Source: a virus. Taken from it: a DNA stretch of 21,522 nucleotides. Positions 1,452 through 21,522 of this stretch are shown here, in pieces (position 1 is the stretch's first letter; each line of letters starts with the position of its first letter). The notes beneath the pieces are model-generated. The model had not been told where the DNA came from. It made no database searches and worked only from the letters and a program-made list of their open reading frames with translations. The DNA lies in IMG/VR virus record IMGVR_UViG_3300025815_000138, positions 1 through 21,522 of that record; one strand, 5' to 3'. The position numbers and the translations under genes are program-made.

Positions 1452-1804
1452 TAAATATTGTCCTCAAGTTTATCAATTGCATCAGCAAAGGCTTGATTAA
1501 ACTTTATGGCAATATCTGGTGAACCATTAAAATCATCTAAGAAATAAGATAATGGTTTTTTAAGTAGCTTACTAATTTGTACTAATTTGATTAATGGAAT
1601 TCTATTTTCAGCAGATTCATACTTGGCTATTTGTTGGTAAGTTGTTTTTAAAGCTGCTGCCAAAGTAACTAAACTAACTTTAACTTGTTTGCCAGTAAAT
1701 TGATTATATTTTTTTATTCTAGCTTCTTTGATTCGTCTGCCAATCTCAGCATAGAATAATCTTTCTTCGTCAAATATTAATTTGGTTTTGTCTGATATTT
1801 TCAT
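1451..1804 (-). CDS. XRE/Cro-family helix-turn-helix repressor
   Basis: A 117-residue protein with a canonical HTH_3 domain at residues 21-92: IGRRIKEARIKK (helix 1), VSLVTLAAALKTTYQQIAKYE (helices 2-3, the recognition helix-turn-helix), then RIPLIKLVQISKLLKKPL and YFLDD, the typical alphaproteobacterial-style ending. It is a DNA-binding transcription regulator, probably a Cro/CI-like switch protein. It has no peptidase or dimerisation domain beyond a short acidic tail. A well-spaced candidate promoter with an inverted repeat over its -35 box lies directly upstream, consistent with autoregulation. The ribosome site is weak (AGAAAGAAC before ATG). Confidence 0.85.
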   Translation of the reverse strand: MKISDKTKLIFDEERLFYAEIGRRIKEARIKKYNQFTGKQVKVSLVTLAAALKTTYQQIAKYESAENRIPLIKLVQISKLLKKPLSYFLDDFNGSPDIAIKFNQAFADAIDKLEDNI

Positions 1805-1830
1805 GTTCTTTCTTTCTATTTTTAATTTAG

Positions 1831-1859
1831 AGTATAGTATCCCTAAGAAGTTTTAACAA
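1831..1859 (-). promoter_or_regulatory. Candidate promoter of the XRE repressor gene
   Basis: Read on the minus strand, TTGTTA (1859-1854) and TATACT (1836-1831) are separated by 17 bp, a sigma70-like arrangement (4/6 and 5/6 matches). It lies 27 nt upstream of the repressor ATG. The -35 box falls inside an inverted repeat. Prediction from sequence only. Confidence 0.5.
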
Positions 1860-1862
1860 CTT
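1848..1862. promoter_or_regulatory. Inverted repeat over the -35 box, candidate operator
   Basis: AAGTT and AACTT arms separated by 5 bp (AAGTTTTAACAACTT) cover the -35 box of the candidate repressor promoter. The position suits an autoregulatory XRE operator. The arms are short and the region is AT-rich, so chance occurrence is possible. Confidence 0.35.
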
Positions 1863-1866
1863 TTGA

Positions 1867-1888
1867 TATATACTTAATTAAGTATATA
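1867..1888. repeat. 22-bp perfect palindrome upstream of the repressor gene
   Basis: A perfect 22-bp palindrome centred on TTAATTAA, with TATATAC and GTATATA outer arms. It includes the stop codon of the gene ending at 1878 and sits just upstream of the repressor promoter. It could be a second operator or, as RNA, a 9-bp AU-rich hairpin. There is no T run that would make it a standard terminator. Confidence 0.5.
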
Positions 1889-2063
1889 AAAATATAGCAT
1901 CTTTGTTTTCGGCTTCTACAATTCTTCTATACAATTGATTGTATTCTTTAAAGTTTTGCAGAGTATGTACGCATTGTCTTCCTCTTTCTCTTGCACCCAT
2001 AATCTTCTTATGTGCTTTATCCAACTTTGCGTATAGCCTAACATTACTATTACTTAGAGCCAT
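1878..2063 (-). CDS. Small basic helical protein of unknown function (61 aa)
   Basis: A 61-residue Arg/Lys-rich protein (MALSNSNVRLYAKLDKAH...). I do not recognise it. Its amino-acid pattern suggests mostly helix. The ATG at 2063 is preferred to the in-frame start 12 nt upstream because GGTGAGGAGAACG directly precedes it. It overlaps the upstream gene by exactly 14 nt, so translation is probably coupled. Its stop codon lies inside a 22-bp palindrome. Confidence 0.65.
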   Translation of the reverse strand: MALSNSNVRLYAKLDKAHKKIMGARERGRQCVHTLQNFKEYNQLYRRIVEAENKDAIFLYT

Positions 2064-2253
2064 CGTTCTCCTCACCGATTGTTTTTATATTTACCTTAGA
2101 AAGTCTGCTATCGGTGATATTTATTTCAGCAGCATCTCCAGGTTTTTTTGATAAATGAGCTTTTTGAGTAGCTTCCTCAATAGTTTCACCATCAAAAATT
2201 TCTCTAAAATTAGCCTCAAACTGGAAAATAGATAATTTTTCAACTCTTTTCAT
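2050..2253 (-). CDS. Hypothetical protein (67 aa)
   Basis: A 67-residue protein beginning MKRVEKLSIFQFEANFREIF. The order of a beta strand, an FDGETIEEATQKA helix, then basic and acidic stretches resembles small beta-alpha-beta proteins, but no family is recognised. It overlaps both neighbours by exactly 14 nt. It sits between a LexA-type winged-helix gene and another small gene, so it may belong to the regulatory part of the operon. Confidence 0.6.
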   Translation of the reverse strand: MKRVEKLSIFQFEANFREIFDGETIEEATQKAHLSKKPGDAAEINITDSRLSKVNIKTIGEENDGSK

Positions 2254-2479
2254 TTATACTTACATTTCTACTGTATCCAGCAAAGTCTCTTTTTAGTTCG
2301 TTTCTTTCTTCTAATTTCTTAATCAAAGAAGAAACAGAATTTTTACTTTTATATCCCAACTCATTTGCCATTTCTGAAAAAGTCGGACTATAATTGTTCT
2401 TTTTAGTGTAATTTTTTATAAATTGCAATAGCCTATCCATTTTAGGAGTCATAGGTCTTTTACTTCTTATCTTGCTCAT
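2240..2479 (-). CDS. LexA-type winged-helix DNA-binding protein (79 aa)
   Basis: Residues 10-74 match the N-terminal DNA-binding domain of LexA: MTPKMDRLLQFIKNYTKKN (helix 1), SPTFSEMANELGYKS and NSVSSLIKKLEERNEL (helices 2-3), then the KRDFAGYSRNVSI wing. LexA itself is about 200 residues and carries a C-terminal S24 autopeptidase; that part is absent. This is therefore a stand-alone regulator that cannot self-cleave. It could read or compete for LexA-type sites of host or phage. AAGGAGG lies 10 nt before the ATG. It overlaps the upstream gene by 20 nt. Confidence 0.8.
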   Translation of the reverse strand: MSKIRSKRPMTPKMDRLLQFIKNYTKKNNYSPTFSEMANELGYKSKNSVSSLIKKLEERNELKRDFAGYSRNVSINEKS

Positions 2480-2759
2480 TAACTACTAGCCTCCTTAATA
2501 ATTCTGCATAGCCATTAATATCGTCAAAACTATCTTTTTTATAGCTATCTGATTGCATGACTCTCCAAAGTTTTAAAAAAATCATAAAAATACCAAAAAA
2601 CTTTAATGGTACTTTAACCTCAACATTATTATAAACTGATAAATACTTTTCTAAAATTCCTGCCATGACATAAGAGGTATTATCAAAATGACCATAATCA
2701 TTTTGTTTTTGGTTTAGCAGTCGTTCTAGTTCAGTAATAAATTTTACATTATCCGACAT
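2460..2759 (-). CDS. DUF6378-like small phage protein (99 aa)
   Basis: A 99-residue protein whose pattern (LNQKQNDYGHFDNT near the N-terminus, a central FFGIFMIFLKLWRVMQ helix, then DSFDDINGYAELLRRL) matches a family of short phage proteins that I recall as DUF6378, related to nucleotide-modification-associated domains. The biochemical role is unproven; an alpha-helical MazG-like or nucleotide-binding fold is inferred. The ATG at 2759 is chosen because AAGGA lies 5 nt before it; longer starts to 2822 have no better site. Overlaps the upstream gene by 11 nt. Confidence 0.65.
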   Translation of the reverse strand: MSDNVKFITELERLLNQKQNDYGHFDNTSYVMAGILEKYLSVYNNVEVKVPLKFFGIFMIFLKLWRVMQSDSYKKDSFDDINGYAELLRRLVVNEQDKK

Positions 2760-2952
2760 AGTTTCCTTGTTCATCTTTACACCAATACACTTGTATTCTT
2801 TTGTTATTATAAAATATTCCATTACGACCAGGATATGATTGAGCTATCTTCTCTATAACCTGGTCGCATTTTGTCATGGATTCTAAGGGAGCTTTATAAA
2901 TGAAAGTTTCTCCATTGACAAAAATCATGAATAAATAAAAATATTTAATCAA
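2749..2952 (-). CDS. Hypothetical protein with hydrophobic N-terminus (67 aa)
   Basis: A 67-residue protein starting with TTG immediately after the upstream gene's stop. The hydrophobic start (MIKYFYLFMIFV) is followed by NGETFIYKAPLESMTKC and a Cys-containing YWCKDEQG end. I recall small phage proteins with the same shape (short beta strand, MxxC helix), all unassigned. An ATG at 2928 would remove the hydrophobic part. Neither start has a clear ribosome site, so the start is uncertain. It may be membrane-associated or exported. Confidence 0.55.
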   Translation of the reverse strand: MIKYFYLFMIFVNGETFIYKAPLESMTKCDQVIEKIAQSYPGRNGIFYNNKRIQVYWCKDEQGNYVG

Positions 2953-3318
2953 TTAAAATGGAATTTCTTTACTTTGTGGTTTAGCTTGTTTTGGTTTAGG
3001 ATCATTCTTATATCCTGAAAGAATAGTCCCCTCATCATTTAACCAACCGATTAAACCTTTATGTCCTCCTGCATCAGGATAGTTCATTTCTCCAGTAAAT
3101 TTATCATCACCTTTAAAAACTACTCCTACTTGAGCAAAGACTCTGACAAATTTTGAATTACCATCTTTTGATACACCTTTAACTCCAAGTATCGTTCCTT
3201 TTTTACCATTTTCTAAAATTACATTACCTGAAAAAGCAATTTTAATAGCTAATTCATCATCAGCTTTATAGGGAAATAAAACCCAATCCTTTTGTTTTGC
3301 ATTACCATTTGTTGACAT
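2953..3318 (-). CDS. Putative single-stranded DNA-binding protein with IPF tip
   Basis: A 121-residue, probably beta-rich protein. It ends PQSKEIPF after a Pro/Lys linker, much like the acidic DDDIPF tip through which bacterial SSB recruits partners. The core has alternating strand-like segments (WVLFPYKADDELAIKIAFSG, TILGVKGVSK, KFVRVFAQVGVVFK) compatible with an OB fold, but I cannot assign a named family. It lies directly downstream of the annealing protein and overlaps it by 17 nt, the usual place for a phage recombination SSB. The ATG at 3318 is preferred because GGAGGACAACAAA precedes it; the frame is open 15 nt further. Confidence 0.55.
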   Translation of the reverse strand: MSTNGNAKQKDWVLFPYKADDELAIKIAFSGNVILENGKKGTILGVKGVSKDGNSKFVRVFAQVGVVFKGDDKFTGEMNYPDAGGHKGLIGWLNDEGTILSGYKNDPKPKQAKPQSKEIPF

Positions 3319-3916
3319 TTTGTTGTCCTCCATTTTTCTTGATTAGTTGTTGTTGTTGATCGAATAACTTTTCAATTTCTTCATCTTCATTGTTATTCTT
3401 TTTCCAATTAGAATAAAGAGCTGTCAACTTTGTTTCAGTTGTTTGCTTTTTAATCTCATCCTTAATTGAAACTGGTTTATTGGTATTTGTATTTTGATTA
3501 TTTAGAGCATTTACTAATTCTTCAGCACTAGCATATTCAGAACCAGATAAGCCAAAGGCAGCTAAACATCTACCTAATGCCGAACTAGATCCATTTTCTA
3601 ATGCACTTGTTTTATTAATAAATGATGAGTTTCTAAACTCCTCTGCATGACCTACAGAATAAATAACATCACTAATATATAATTCTACTTTTACAATAAC
3701 TCTGTCGGCATCATGAAATAATATTTCTTCATTAAATCTTGCCTCTGGAAAATATTGTAATAAATGTTTGTGTCTTTCATTCACTGTAGAATATTTTTTA
3801 CCTTTAATATTTACAGTTGGAATATTTTTTAAAGCATCCAGACATTGTTGTCTTCGTTCTTTAAATCCACCTGAAGATTTATTTTTTTCTTCTGTTGTTT
3901 GTGGTCGTAACTTCAT
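3302..3916 (-). CDS. Erf/Rad52-like single-strand annealing protein
   Basis: A 204-residue protein. The central block at residues 88-134, with VGHAEEF, NKTSALENGSSSALGRCLA and GLSGSEYASAEE, is the hallmark of phage Erf-like annealing proteins that pair complementary single strands during recombination and genome circularisation. The C-terminal 70 residues are Asn/Gln/Lys-rich and probably disordered. GGAAGGAAATAAAG before the ATG is a strong ribosome site. Neighbours encode an SSB-like protein and exonuclease parts, together a Red-like recombination module. The exact annealing superfamily is uncertain. Confidence 0.7.
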   Translation of the reverse strand: MKLRPQTTEEKNKSSGGFKERRQQCLDALKNIPTVNIKGKKYSTVNERHKHLLQYFPEARFNEEILFHDADRVIVKVELYISDVIYSVGHAEEFRNSSFINKTSALENGSSSALGRCLAAFGLSGSEYASAEELVNALNNQNTNTNKPVSIKDEIKKQTTETKLTALYSNWKKNNNEDEEIEKLFDQQQQLIKKNGGQQNVNKW

Positions 3917-4949: not shown

Positions 4950-5142
4950 ATTTTCTCCTTGTAAATATAGTTCTCCAAAACCAAGAACGCATCATTGAAA
5001 TTACTGTAAAAATAACAGCTATGTGAAAACTCTCCAAGATTGTTGGGTGTAGGTCAAAAAATGGAAATATAAATAATTGAATTAATGTAGATAAGATTAA
5101 TCCACTACCAACATCAATTACAGTTTCAAATAAGTTTCTCAT
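4936..5142 (-). CDS. Small two-helix membrane protein, DUF7220-like (68 aa)
   Basis: A 68-residue protein with two hydrophobic segments (VGSGLILSTLIQLFIFPFF and IAVIFTVISMMRSWFW) and a basic end (RTIFTRRKYDKS). The pattern matches a phage membrane-protein family that I recall as DUF7220, in which a conserved FTxxSxxRS motif follows the second helix. Function unknown. The ATG at 5142 overlaps the stop of the adenine methyltransferase (ATGA). Confidence 0.7.
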   Translation of the reverse strand: MRNLFETVIDVGSGLILSTLIQLFIFPFFDLHPTILESFHIAVIFTVISMMRSWFWRTIFTRRKYDKS

Positions 5143-5696
5143 ATCCAATCTATAGTAGGTTTGCCATTGTAATTTACATCATAAATAAACCAACCAAAAG
5201 CCATAAGACCACCTGCTAATTTTTGAGTTGATTCTTTTTTAAATGGAACTCTCCTAGTGAATATTAAAACTTTTTCTAATTTATTTTTATTAAATATTAG
5301 TTCCCTTCTTTTAACACCTTCTAAATAAGAAATTTTAGAAAGCATAACAACTTTATTTTTTGCCAATTCAAATGCTTTTAATGTAAATTCTGTTGCTAAA
5401 TTAAATGGTGGATTAGTTACAATATTATCAACTTGTTTATCAGATTCTAAAAAATTAATTCCAGTTTCACCATAACCTCTATCAATTAAATCTGAACTAT
5501 AAACATTATAATTGTTTTTAATCATTACTTTAGACATAGCACCATTACCACAGGCACACTCCCAGATATTACCTTCAAATTTTTGTCTGTCTAATAAAGC
5601 CTGTGTTGCAGATTCTGGTGTTGGGTAAAAATCGTCTTTTTCTCTATCGCCTCTTTCATTATGACCTACATAAGCCAAAGCACTACTTTTTTTCAT
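5139..5696 (-). CDS. DNA N6-adenine methyltransferase (NPPF type)
   Basis: A 185-residue S-adenosylmethionine-dependent methyltransferase. DDFYPTP at 21-27 precedes the SAM-binding motif I WECACGNGAMS at 45-55; an acidic SSDLIDRGYG strand follows; the catalytic NPPF is at 95-98. Enzymes with this N-terminus are common in phages, are short, and lack a separate target-recognition domain. It would methylate adenine in phage DNA, perhaps against host restriction. The internal ATG at 5696 is chosen because AAGGAAAAAAAGAA precedes it and the family start fits; an upstream start at 5747 would add 17 basic residues. Overlaps the upstream gene by 14 nt. Confidence 0.8.
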   Translation of the reverse strand: MKKSSALAYVGHNERGDREKDDFYPTPESATQALLDRQKFEGNIWECACGNGAMSKVMIKNNYNVYSSDLIDRGYGETGINFLESDKQVDNIVTNPPFNLATEFTLKAFELAKNKVVMLSKISYLEGVKRRELIFNKNKLEKVLIFTRRVPFKKESTQKLAGGLMAFGWFIYDVNYNGKPTIDWI

Positions 5697-5880
5697 TTCT
5701 TTTTTTCCTTCTCTGATTGATATTAATATTCTTTCTTTCATATTCATTAATCGTCATATCGGTATGATTAACAAACCAACAACTAGCGCAAATATCTTTG
5801 CCAGACTCCACAACATCTGCGTTCATTCCACATTTGTAGCAGACTCTAAAATCGCCATAGATGTTTTTTTTATCTTTCAT
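5683..5880 (-). CDS. Small zinc-ribbon protein (65 aa)
   Basis: A 65-residue protein with CYKCGMN and CASCW about 16 residues apart, a four-cysteine zinc ribbon, followed by a very basic C-terminus. No family recognised. The ATG at 5880 overlaps the stop of the 419-residue gene (ATGA). It sits between the two DNA-methyltransferase genes, so a DNA- or protein-binding accessory role is possible. Confidence 0.65.
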   Translation of the reverse strand: MKDKKNIYGDFRVCYKCGMNADVVESGKDICASCWFVNHTDMTINEYERKNININQRRKKRNEKK

Positions 5881-7136
5881 TCTTTCCAATCTTTTTCTAT
5901 TTGGTAAGTTAATTCCTTATCAAATTTTAATTCTTTTAAAAATGGTTTAATTATATTCCAATCTTCTATACTAGGATAAGAAAAACAATTATCTTTTCTA
6001 AACCAATGTTCAATTTTAGTTTTTGGTAGATTAGTTTTTTGAACTAATTCTTTAATTGTAGTTTGTGATTTTAAATAATTAATAAAATCTAATTTATTTG
6101 GTAAATTAGGTCTTTCCATAAAAGGTTTATCAAATTCGTTTATCAAGTGAGGATTATTTTTTAAATACTCCATAGCCACATCAGTTGATAAAGTTATTTG
6201 AACTCTTTGATTGCTATTTCTATTAACTTTTCCTTTTAATATCTTGGCAGCATAAATCATACTATCTTCATTTATGTCCATTGAGGTTGGTGTTCTATAC
6301 ATTTTCTGCTTCGATAATTGCTTTTCCAAGTTCTCTGGCGATTTGTGGGACAATGGAGTTTCCAAGACTTTTGACTCTGTTGGCTCTATCTTTGTCCAAT
6401 TCATAGGATACCCCATTAGGAACTCCACAAAGTTCGGATTGAGTTTGCCACCAAGTCCTGTTTTTTGAAGATGAATTACTCCAGGTAGACCTAGTTGTTT
6501 TTTCTTTTTCAATCTTTTCAGATGATAATTTTTGTCCGACACATCTACTTTGTACATTCCTGCTTCTGGGGTTGGATACATTTTTTCTATCTTGTTCACT
6601 ACATCGTTCAGTTTTGCTCCAAACTTCGTTCCAGTTCCAACTCTGGTTACACTCCACCCTTTTGAATTCTGTTGTACTGTTTCTGGTGGTGCTACTACAT
6701 CCATCTGACAACTTGCCGAAGGTGTTGGAAACATTTTTACTGCTATTGGTAGAGGTGTTCCCCCTTGTTTGTATTTCTTGGTTCTCTCCGATGCCGAATC
6801 TTGTGTTGGAGTTGGATACATTACATCCGATAATCCAAACTCTTTTTCTTTGATGCCAAGCACCGATGCCTGAAGCTGGTATAATAAGACATTGGACTTC
6901 GAAACCTTCTTTTTCCAAGTCAGTTTGCACCTGTCTGAGTACCATGCCTTGTTGGATGTTAATAAGACCTTCAACATTTTCGCCAATAAAATACTTCGGT
7001 TTACATTCTCTGACGACTCTAATAGTTTCATCCCAGAGGTATCTATCGTCATCTGTTCCTTTTCTTTTTCCTGCAACTGAGAATGGTTGGCATGGGAATC
7101 CTCCAGTAACAACATCTGCTTTAATTTCTTTTCCAT
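5877..7136 (-). CDS. 419-aa 'YPTP' protein overlapping the C5-methyltransferase in +1 frame
   Basis: Two-thirds of this gene (about 280 codons) lies inside the cytosine-methyltransferase gene in the +1 frame; the last third is unique DNA. The protein has a KAWYSDRCKLTWKKKVSKS segment (64-82), then MYPTPT, MFPTPS, MYPTPE and MYRTPT at 106, 135, 186 and 279. KLNPNFVEFLMGYPMNWT is at 231-248, and the unique C-terminal domain carries IKELVQKTNLPKTKIEHWFR (361-380) and FSYPSIEDW. From memory these pieces occur in proteins annotated as DNA methyltransferase in many phages, so this is probably a real protein family. AAGGAGG lies 4 nt before the ATG. Function unknown; a partner or target-recognition subunit of the methyltransferase is inferred. 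Confidence 0.75.
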   Translation of the reverse strand: MEKKLKQMLLLEDSHANHSQLQEKEKEQMTIDTSGMKLLESSENVNRSILLAKMLKVLLTSNKAWYSDRCKLTWKKKVSKSNVLLYQLQASVLGIKEKEFGLSDVMYPTPTQDSASERTKKYKQGGTPLPIAVKMFPTPSASCQMDVVAPPETVQQNSKGWSVTRVGTGTKFGAKLNDVVNKIEKMYPTPEAGMYKVDVSDKNYHLKRLKKKKQLGLPGVIHLQKTGLGGKLNPNFVEFLMGYPMNWTKIEPTESKVLETPLSHKSPENLEKQLSKQKMYRTPTSMDINEDSMIYAAKILKGKVNRNSNQRVQITLSTDVAMEYLKNNPHLINEFDKPFMERPNLPNKLDFINYLKSQTTIKELVQKTNLPKTKIEHWFRKDNCFSYPSIEDWNIIKPFLKELKFDKELTYQIEKDWKE

Positions 7137-7305
7137 TTATCCTCCTTACATCATCTATAATTGGAATGTTTGACCAATGTTTTTTTAATACCTTTTGACA
7201 AAATTGGTCTTTTTCACAAAAGGCAATTGTTTCAAAGTGTCCAGTAGATTCTAAACCTAAACTAAAACCACCAATGCCACTAAATAAATCTAAAACTTTA
7301 AGCAT
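6295..7305 (-). CDS. DNA (cytosine-5) methyltransferase
   Basis: A 336-residue enzyme with the full C5-methyltransferase motif set: motif I DLFSGIGGFSLGL at 6-18, motif IV GGFPCQPFS with catalytic Cys 72, motif VI ENVEG at 109-113, motif VIII QRKRVW at 152-157, and motif IX/X RVKSLGNSIVPQIA at 310-323. It transfers a methyl group from SAM to cytosine C5. The target-recognition region (160-290) is Ser/Asn-rich and of low complexity, as expected where a second reading frame is also coding. The ATG at 7305 starts just before motif I; a GTG 30 nt upstream is less likely. No clear ribosome site is visible. No cognate restriction enzyme is evident. Confidence 0.9.
   Translation of the reverse strand: MLKVLDLFSGIGGFSLGLESTGHFETIAFCEKDQFCQKVLKKHWSNIPIIDDVRRINGKEIKADVVTGGFPCQPFSVAGKRKGTDDDRYLWDETIRVVRECKPKYFIGENVEGLINIQQGMVLRQVQTDLEKEGFEVQCLIIPASGIGAWHQRKRVWIIGCNVSNSNTRFGIGENQEIQTRGNTSTNSSKNVSNTFGKLSDGCSSTTRNSTTEFKRVECNQSWNWNEVWSKTERCSEQDRKNVSNPRSRNVQSRCVGQKLSSEKIEKEKTTRSTWSNSSSKNRTWWQTQSELCGVPNGVSYELDKDRANRVKSLGNSIVPQIARELGKAIIEAENV
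7137..7147 (-). promoter_or_regulatory. Strong Shine-Dalgarno inside the methyltransferase gene
   Basis: On the minus strand AAGGAGG is followed by ATAA and the ATG at 7136. The same bases encode Arg54-Arg55 of the methyltransferase as AGG AGG, a notable pair where AGA is the usual Arg codon. It is one of the best ribosome sites in the window and decides the start of the overlapping 419-residue gene. Confidence 0.8.
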
Positions 7306-7351
7306 AATCAATTCATTATTAGGTAGGTTGTCCACATAATAATTTCTATTA

Positions 7352-20350: not shown

Positions 20351-21522
20351 ATGGCAGGTATAAAAGATTATTCAACAACACAAGCTAACAATACAGACTT
20401 AAATGGTATTTCAGTAGCAGAAGGGATGCTACCATCCAATCTAAACAATGCCATTAGAGCATTGATGAAAAATACTAGAGATTGGTATAATGATTCTCAA
20501 TGGGTAGAGTATGGTGATGGTAGTGGTGCTTATACTGCAACTTACGCATCAGCTACTTCTTTTACAATTGCTGGTGTTGATGTAACTTCTTTTTATCATG
20601 CTGACAGAAGAATTAAAATTGTAGCTCCAACTCCAGGAACTATTTATGGAACTATAAGTTCATCATCTTTTTCAACAGACACTACAATTAATATAACTTG
20701 GGATTCAGGAAATTTATCTAACGAAGCAATTACTAATGTATATGTTGGTGCAATATCTAAAACAAATACATCTATTCCTGGTGGAGTTATTGGTACAACT
20801 CAATTAGCAGATGGATCAGTTACTACTGCTAAACTTGGAGCAGATGCAGTTAATGGTTCTAAAATTGCAGATGATAGTATTGATAGTGAACATTATGTAG
20901 ATGGTTCTATAGACACAGCTCATATTGCAGACTCACAAATTACAGTTGCTAAGATGGCAGCAAACTCAGTTGATTCAGATCAATATGTAGATGGATCTAT
21001 AGATACAGTACACATAGCTGATTCTCAAATTACTAATGCTAAAATGGCTGCTAATTCTGTAGACTCAGATCAGTATGTTGATGGCAGTATAGATACAGCT
21101 CACATTGGAGATAGCCAAGTAACAACTGCTAAGATTGCAGATTCAAATATTACTTCAGCAAAAATTTTAGATGGTACTATTGTTAATGCAGATATTAATA
21201 CTAGTGCTGCTATTGATGCTACTAAAATTCATGATGGTACAATTTCAAATACAGAATTTGGTTATCTAAATAATGTTTCATCAAATATTCAAACTCAATT
21301 AGATGCTAAACTTGTTAAAGCAAATAACTTATCAGATTTAACTTCAGCTAGTACAGCTAGAACTAATTTAGGTTTAGGAACAATTGCAACTCAAAATGCA
21401 AACAATGTTTCTATATCTGGTGGTTCAGTTACAGGTCTTGGAGATCCTTCTGTTTCATCTGAAGCTGCTACTAAAAATTATGTAGACCAAGCTGTTGCAG
21501 GACTAAGAACTAGAATTATTGC
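20351..21522 (+). CDS. Tail fibre protein, 5' part (cut by window end)
   Basis: At least 390 residues, open at the window end. The N-terminus (MAGIKDYSTTQANNTDLNGI, GMLPSNLNNAIRALMKNTRDW) is the tail-attachment pattern of podovirus fibres. A beta domain follows, then three nearly identical 30-residue repeats (178-267) and FGYLNNVSSNIQTQL, AASTARTNLGLGT-like and AATKNYVDQAV segments known from trimeric phage fibres. It would bind the host surface. The GGAGATTAAA ribosome site lies in the end of the upstream gene. The receptor-binding tip lies outside the window. Confidence 0.85.
   Translation, partial: MAGIKDYSTTQANNTDLNGISVAEGMLPSNLNNAIRALMKNTRDWYNDSQWVEYGDGSGAYTATYASATSFTIAGVDVTSFYHADRRIKIVAPTPGTIYGTISSSSFSTDTTINITWDSGNLSNEAITNVYVGAISKTNTSIPGGVIGTTQLADGSVTTAKLGADAVNGSKIADDSIDSEHYVDGSIDTAHIADSQITVAKMAANSVDSDQYVDGSIDTVHIADSQITNAKMAANSVDSDQYVDGSIDTAHIGDSQVTTAKIADSNITSAKILDGTIVNADINTSAAIDATKIHDGTISNTEFGYLNNVSSNIQTQLDAKLVKANNLSDLTSASTARTNLGLGTIATQNANNVSISGGSVTGLGDPSVSSEAATKNYVDQAVAGLRTRII
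20882..21151 (+). repeat. Three 90-bp tandem repeats in the fibre gene
   Basis: Units at 20882-20971, 20972-21061 and 21062-21151 each encode 30 residues of the form DSxxYVDGSIDTxHIADSQI followed by TxAKMAANSV; the third drifts at its end. Bases differ mostly at third codon positions, so the protein sequence is under selection. Typical of fibre shafts that change length by recombination. Confidence 0.85.

Follow-up and report, generated by a model that had tools for sequence, protein, structure and literature searches.

In ordinary C5-cytosine methyltransferases, the target-recognition domain (TRD) and motif IX stand between motifs VIII and X. M.EcoHK31I and M.EaeI are C5 methyltransferases made of two polypeptides, and Lee et al. 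(1995) reportedly described the small polypeptide of M.EcoHK31I as the product of a different reading frame within the gene of the large one. A Klebsiella aerogenes sequence (LR134256) considered as a possible EaeI locus was rejected, since the copy, which lies on a phage-like plasmid, is broken. In M.EcoHK31I, the large polypeptide carries motifs I to VIII and X, motif IX lies on the smaller polypeptide, and the TRD, itself a prediction, has been placed in the large one (PMC3404938). M.AquI is a natural two-subunit split of one C5 enzyme, and fragment complementation is known for C5 enzymes split between motif VIII and the TRD (PMC3404938). A two-polypeptide C5 enzyme with motif IX on the smaller polypeptide is thus, with M.EcoHK31I, a known kind. 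Here we analyze a viral locus with two overlapping genes, alpha and beta, that would encode the halves of a single heterodimeric C5 methyltransferase of the M.EcoHK31I type, a reading to which we assign a probability of roughly 0.86. The precedent, unnoticed in the initial annotation of this DNA, makes the kind less new than that annotation implied; what is new is the breadth of the arrangement, the evidence that frame 2 holds target recognition, the change of frame of motif IX, and an extra C-terminal domain on the long betas.

The window, a stretch of 21,522 nucleotides of viral DNA, contains alpha (346 aa when counted from its GTG) and beta (419 aa), and the location of their features is given in Table 1. 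The same-strand dual-coding overlap of 842 bp, with beta in the +1 frame, that had been reported for this locus is real: both open reading frames are present at their coordinates, and none of 5000 synonymous-codon shuffles of the window alpha matched the +1 open run of 280 codons. Likewise, in 84 of the 85 aligned members (the window among them) no shuffle was as long as the observed +1 run. Since no shuffle of 5000 reaches the observed run, a chance opening of the second frame is excluded. Both translations, printed against the DNA, agree with the initial annotation in that beta starts with an ATG at 7136, 4 nt after AAGGAGG, and extends for 418 bp after alpha has stopped, and in that motif VIII of alpha (QRKRVW) and a segment of the second protein, IKEKEFGL, are coded by the same DNA. 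Alpha reads AAGGAGG as Arg-Arg; the numbering Arg54-Arg55 proposed for this pair holds from an ATG at 7305, and becomes Arg64-Arg65 from the GTG. The ATG at 7305 is probably the start of alpha rather than the GTG, because the alignment of many homologues opens at about residue 12. Most members display an ATG and an AGGAGG-like sequence at the same beta start position. Across relatives the overlap is about 0.5–1 kb long, and beta exists in a nested form, whose stop lies 3–55 codons (mostly 4–35) ahead of the alpha stop, and in an extended form, which continues 127–142 codons past it. Elsewhere in the window, the pair is followed downstream by a second DNA methyltransferase (5139–5747; phrog_799, profile positions 179–379 of 458 only), and a tail-fibre-like protein with VDGSIDTAHIADSQI-type repeats is cut by the window end (20351–21520).

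Table 1. Features of the alpha/beta locus, in window coordinates.
Feature	Position	Strand	Description	Evidence or remark
alpha	6295..7335	minus	predicted C5-cytosine methyltransferase catalytic subunit	PF00145, phrog_363 and M.HhaI matches
beta	5877..7136	minus	putative subunit of 419 aa in the second frame (+1 to alpha)	phrog_1008 match, conserved frame, own dN/dS signal
alpha/beta dual-coding overlap	6295..7136	minus	842 bp	
beta ribosome-binding site AAGGAGG	7141..7147	minus	inside alpha	
alpha motif VIII QRKRVW	6835..6852	minus	same DNA codes beta residues ~95–100	
alpha linker a169–290	6466..6831	minus	nearly neutral in alpha, S/N/T/R-rich	DNA of the proposed beta recognition region
beta residues 229–248 GGKLNPNFVEFLMGYPMNWT	6393..6452	minus	C5 motif IX, by sequence	invariant columns, wB, profile-profile alignment, sister group
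alpha motif X (RVKSLGNSIVPQIA)	6337..6378	minus	read after the linker	
long-beta C-terminal domain, residues 280–419	5880..6299	minus	probably helical and HTH-like	

Alpha matches PF00145 (2.5e-57, residues 12–341) and phrog_363 (8.2e-74), and M.HhaI aligns to its residues 6–170. It displays the catalytic core of C5 enzymes (PF00145), namely PCQ (motif IV), ENV (VI), QRxR (VIII) and GN..VP (X). Its near- or fully invariant columns sit in motifs I, IV (PCQ), VI (ENV), VIII (QRKRVW) and X (SLGNSIVP), those that are invariant being P81 C82 Q83, E119 N120 V121, R163 R165 and G325 N326 P330. The statement that one frame holds all the C5 motifs is wrong: alpha harbors motifs I–VIII and X and lacks motif IX, and motif IX and a TRD were not found together with VIII and X on this one polypeptide. 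The alpha stretch between VIII and X (a171–294) consists to 78% of S/N/T/R/K/Q/E/G. The alpha linker (122 codons) is under little amino-acid constraint, yet its frame stays open, as expected if translation has to reach motif X. On the evidence of the motifs, the complete C5 enzyme is the alpha/beta pair, not alpha alone.

Beta matches phrog_1008 ("DNA methyltransferase") at 6.6e-27. Searches of Pfam and NCBIfam with beta gave nothing significant, and a PDB sequence search with beta and its 85-member profile gave no relative. The families matched by alpha and by beta, phrog_363 and phrog_1008, are both labelled DNA methyltransferase and are listed separately in the library, where their common coding DNA is unmentioned. 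The most conserved stretch of beta is GGKLNPNFVEFLMGYPMNWT, in which G230, L232, E238, L240, M241, P244 and T248 are invariant in the 85 members; it resembles C5 motif IX, which we take to be LHPRECARVMGYPDSY in M.HhaI, and the constrained beta segment LNPNFVEFLMGYPMNWT matches this motif. In the best profile-profile alignment of beta (145 sequences) with monomeric enzymes, Q 190–209 falls on T 334–353, the monomer motif IX. This match covers 20 columns only (P 0.013, probability 3.4%), its statistics being weak because the segment is short, and it falls at the expected position out of a 410-column profile. Together with wB and the sister group described below, these alignments show that the beta segment corresponds, in sequence, to C5 motif IX. 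AlphaFold2 (AF2) modeled beta alone with a mean pLDDT of 59, and of ~40 over most of residues 1–147 and 190–280, and Foldseek with this full-length model returned only noise and no relative. The poor model may be due to the missing partner, and it lends no support to the heterodimer.

Beta is found in the +1 frame in 157 of 158 viral sequences (157 loci and the window); many of these loci are pieces of one contig, and the unique full-length pairs number 95. About half of the viral loci were fetched by alpha alone, so that an open second frame was no direct selection criterion there, and every locus fetched via beta contains alpha in a fixed relative frame. Among bacterial genome contigs, all 80 relatives retrieved with the alpha alignment have beta in +1 (28–58% identity, best segment), a few of the 80 loci being copies of each other (L164–L166). 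By title these contigs belong to Bacteroidota, Bacillota, Pseudomonadota, Planctomycetota, Spirochaetota, Verrucomicrobiota, Calditrichota and others. The bacterial scan relied on two alpha peptide patterns, of which AGKRKGxD lies within the overlap and possibly biases the result towards the alpha/beta family. An open second frame, which the initial annotation had proposed to look for in methyltransferase homologues, thus accompanies alpha in viruses and bacteria. As a control, none of 30 monomeric C5 enzymes (TIGR00675) had a beta match, and their +1 frames contain 11–37 stops. In the phylum of genome G001 (Bacteroidota by title), phrog_1008 was found in 2 of 198 genomes, namely the seed genome and a 24-position match; either the arrangement, though widespread, is uncommon in this phylum, or phrog_1008 is too insensitive.

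The lone exception among the 158 viral sequences, L048, has alpha and beta in one 500-codon frame (1645–3144) and has lost motif X, probably through an indel or an assembly error. Such a single frame could be taken as a sign that programmed ribosomal frameshifting fuses alpha and beta into one longer polypeptide. We consider this highly improbable, as in most members the internal ATG is conserved and preceded by a strong Shine-Dalgarno sequence, a second shift back would be required to read motif X after motif IX, and L048 itself is indel-like and without motif X.

We then sorted each possible change as synonymous or nonsynonymous in each frame, with wB = dNN/dNS and wA = dNN/dSN. For the main group, dN/dS was computed on 37 disjoint pairs with codons bootstrapped, disjoint pairs replacing all pairs because pairs have common ancestry. 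The results show a wB of 0.97 (0.73–1.36) upstream of beta, which serves as in-gene control, 0.42 (0.34–0.53) over motifs IV–VIII, 0.28 (0.24–0.33) over the linker, 0.21 (0.15–0.30) over beta motif IX and 0.73 (0.54–1.02) over alpha motif X. In the alpha frame, wA is 0.15 before beta, 0.14 over IV–VIII and 0.13 over motif X, and reaches 0.83 (0.70–0.98) over the linker and 1.91 (1.09–3.84) over beta motif IX. The synonymous-site constraint that had been suggested as a check on the overlap was measured at alpha third positions, which are beta second positions: their rate of change is 0.164 ahead of beta, drops to 0.101 in motifs IV–VIII, stands at 0.136 in the linker, is lowest within beta motif IX (0.038), and comes back up to 0.240 in motif X. 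Over the linker, change by alpha codon position (a1 0.259, a2 0.110, a3 0.136) follows the codon pattern of beta. Judged from these substitution patterns, both frames are shown to be under selection with a division of labor between them, in which the frames alternate, alpha keeping the catalytic parts and beta the recognition-like region and motif IX. Chance can produce long open frames, and the first reading of this DNA had only its letters to go on; however, the shuffles, a wB far under the in-gene control and the stops in the monomeric enzymes refute the idea that the second frame is open through chance or composition and contains no gene.

A regular-expression scan revealed a single place among the loci, in L202 (Candidatus Bandiella), where the motif IX segment stands in alpha's frame just ahead of motif X (LNPDWVEWLMGFPSSWTESGSRRQRLMVLGNAVVP). 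A viral search with the L202 IX–X region yielded 49 further loci of the same design among 81 examined in all, and the region also matched two Candidatus Megaera plasmids, one of which is L359. L202, L277–L325 and the plasmid L359 form what we call the sister group (42 unique loci), which takes in a Rickettsiales symbiont genome and plasmid copies. In nearly all its loci, the +1 frame encodes a beta of typically ~130–290 aa, which contains a recognition-like region and no motif IX. Analysis of 19 disjoint pairs gave a wB of 0.55 in the control, 0.52 over IV–VIII, 0.53 over IX–X and 0.11 (0.09–0.14) over the recognition-like region, where wA is 0.66 (0.50–0.86); given that the wB controls differ (0.97 in the main group, 0.55 in the sister group), each region is compared only with the control of its own group. 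The position of motif IX next to motif X within the sister-group alpha indicates that this motif belongs to the methyltransferase, in either frame. As read from the aligned loci, the PTP-repeat (recognition-like) region stays in frame 2 while motif IX changes frame.

We infer that the recognition domain is the middle of beta. Target recognition might instead reside in the alpha linker, beta giving motif IX and not specificity, an assignment that would fit the description of M.EcoHK31I, in which the predicted TRD is put in the large subunit (PMC3404938), as well as the sister-group linker wA, by which alpha is maybe not fully neutral. This appears unlikely, in that substitution in the linker follows the beta codon pattern and that the sister-group beta, devoid of motif IX, retains exactly the recognition-like region, at its low wB.

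The extended betas carry a C-terminal domain with 81% mean column identity over 31 members, whereas among the 95 unique full-length pairs compared many betas are without it. Its attachment to the second frame, also put forward earlier as a check, is seen throughout a whole subgroup, where the domain is joined to the +1 frame. AF2 modeled this domain with a pLDDT of 82.5; Foldseek with the model found nothing at E < 1, and VIA-align found matches at Z <= 5 only (MPnS, lambda repressor, SinR), the lambda-repressor/SinR-like ones being weak (Z 4.5–4.8). From the model, the domain is probably helical and HTH-like, the matches being compatible with an HTH fold and no proof of it. A relative (31.9% identity) was found at about residues 161–267 of a 380-aa staphylococcal phage N6/N4 methyltransferase (L360, 2501–2821), and its location within such an enzyme suggests a DNA-contact module; the C-terminal domain may be a portable one. 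An HTH-like domain on the long betas could also be expected if beta were an independent protein, a regulator or an anti-restriction factor, overprinting the methyltransferase by accident. We regard this as very unlikely, given that motif IX is present in beta and absent from alpha, that in the sister group it sits inside the methyltransferase polypeptide just ahead of motif X, that loci fetched by beta all have alpha in a fixed relative frame, and that many betas lack the domain. Among the roles initially offered for beta, that of a partner or specificity subunit is supported, and that of a pure regulator is not favored.

In the heterodimer that we propose, alpha would provide cofactor binding and catalysis via motifs I–VIII, its translation running on across the nearly neutral linker to motif X. 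Translation of beta would begin at the internal ATG, which has a Shine-Dalgarno site to itself, and beta would contribute motif IX together with the target-recognition region and a conserved N-terminal region. With alpha as the large domain and beta as the small domain, the two proteins, once expressed, would reconstitute the cleft and restore the ordinary C5-methyltransferase fold; the enzyme would methylate phage DNA and thereby probably guard it against host restriction. We infer this heterodimer, along with its activity, specificity and biological role.

As in M.EcoHK31I, motifs I–VIII and X are on alpha and motif IX on a separate beta (a comparison of motif layout), and the small polypeptide is, as reportedly there, encoded within the gene of the large one in a different frame. 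In contrast to M.EcoHK31I, selection here puts recognition in the second frame (linker wA 0.83 and wB 0.28; sister wB 0.11), beta is long (419 aa) and has an extra C-terminal domain, and the sister group has motif IX in the alpha frame. Here the enzyme is also that of a phage, and a PHROGs scan of ten window proteins recognized no restriction endonuclease. The locus resembles M.AquI in that one C5 enzyme is made as two polypeptides; however, M.AquI is split linearly into I–VIII and IX–X, with motif X on the small subunit, while here motif X remains in alpha. Paenibacillus larvae phages (for example Tadhana genes 54 and 55) display the same +1 overlap with both frames labelled methyltransferase, beta being nested in alpha, without the C-terminal domain, at ~30–33% identity over the aligned parts. 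Literature searches for the alpha/beta overlap found no description, although one may exist.

The suggestion that an old and widespread arrangement is masked by one-frame annotation is supported by the viral and bacterial loci and by records that list alpha alone. Both genes are often annotated in Paenibacillus phage records, whereas in Escherichia phage ESSI2 and in the three RefSeq-style records examined (L358, L362 and L363) alpha alone is annotated and the second frame is present. The record of L001 (KT997847.1) annotates, at 2794–3630, an initial fragment of alpha, whose frame is broken, followed by beta under the name "cytosine-specific methyltransferase", the remainder of alpha being without annotation. 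RefSeq lists two partial pseudogenes at L361 2989–4158, where alpha is a single open frame, 404 codons long, and beta is in +1.

Overlapping genes of prokaryotes are mostly young, short or doubtful. The long alpha/beta overlap occurs in viruses and several bacterial phyla, with selection measurable in each frame. We find it fairly likely that this C5 family of viruses and several phyla, with recognition always in the +1 frame and motif IX moved between frames, is among the oldest and widest dual-coded pairs of prokaryotes, mostly unannotated. Some records of "DNA cytosine methyltransferase" describe only part of an enzyme, and for such enzymes the second frame would be needed in specificity studies, methylome assignments and expression attempts. 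M.EcoHK31I has already been used for targeted methylation (PMC3439449), and a naturally two-piece methyltransferase is useful for this purpose.
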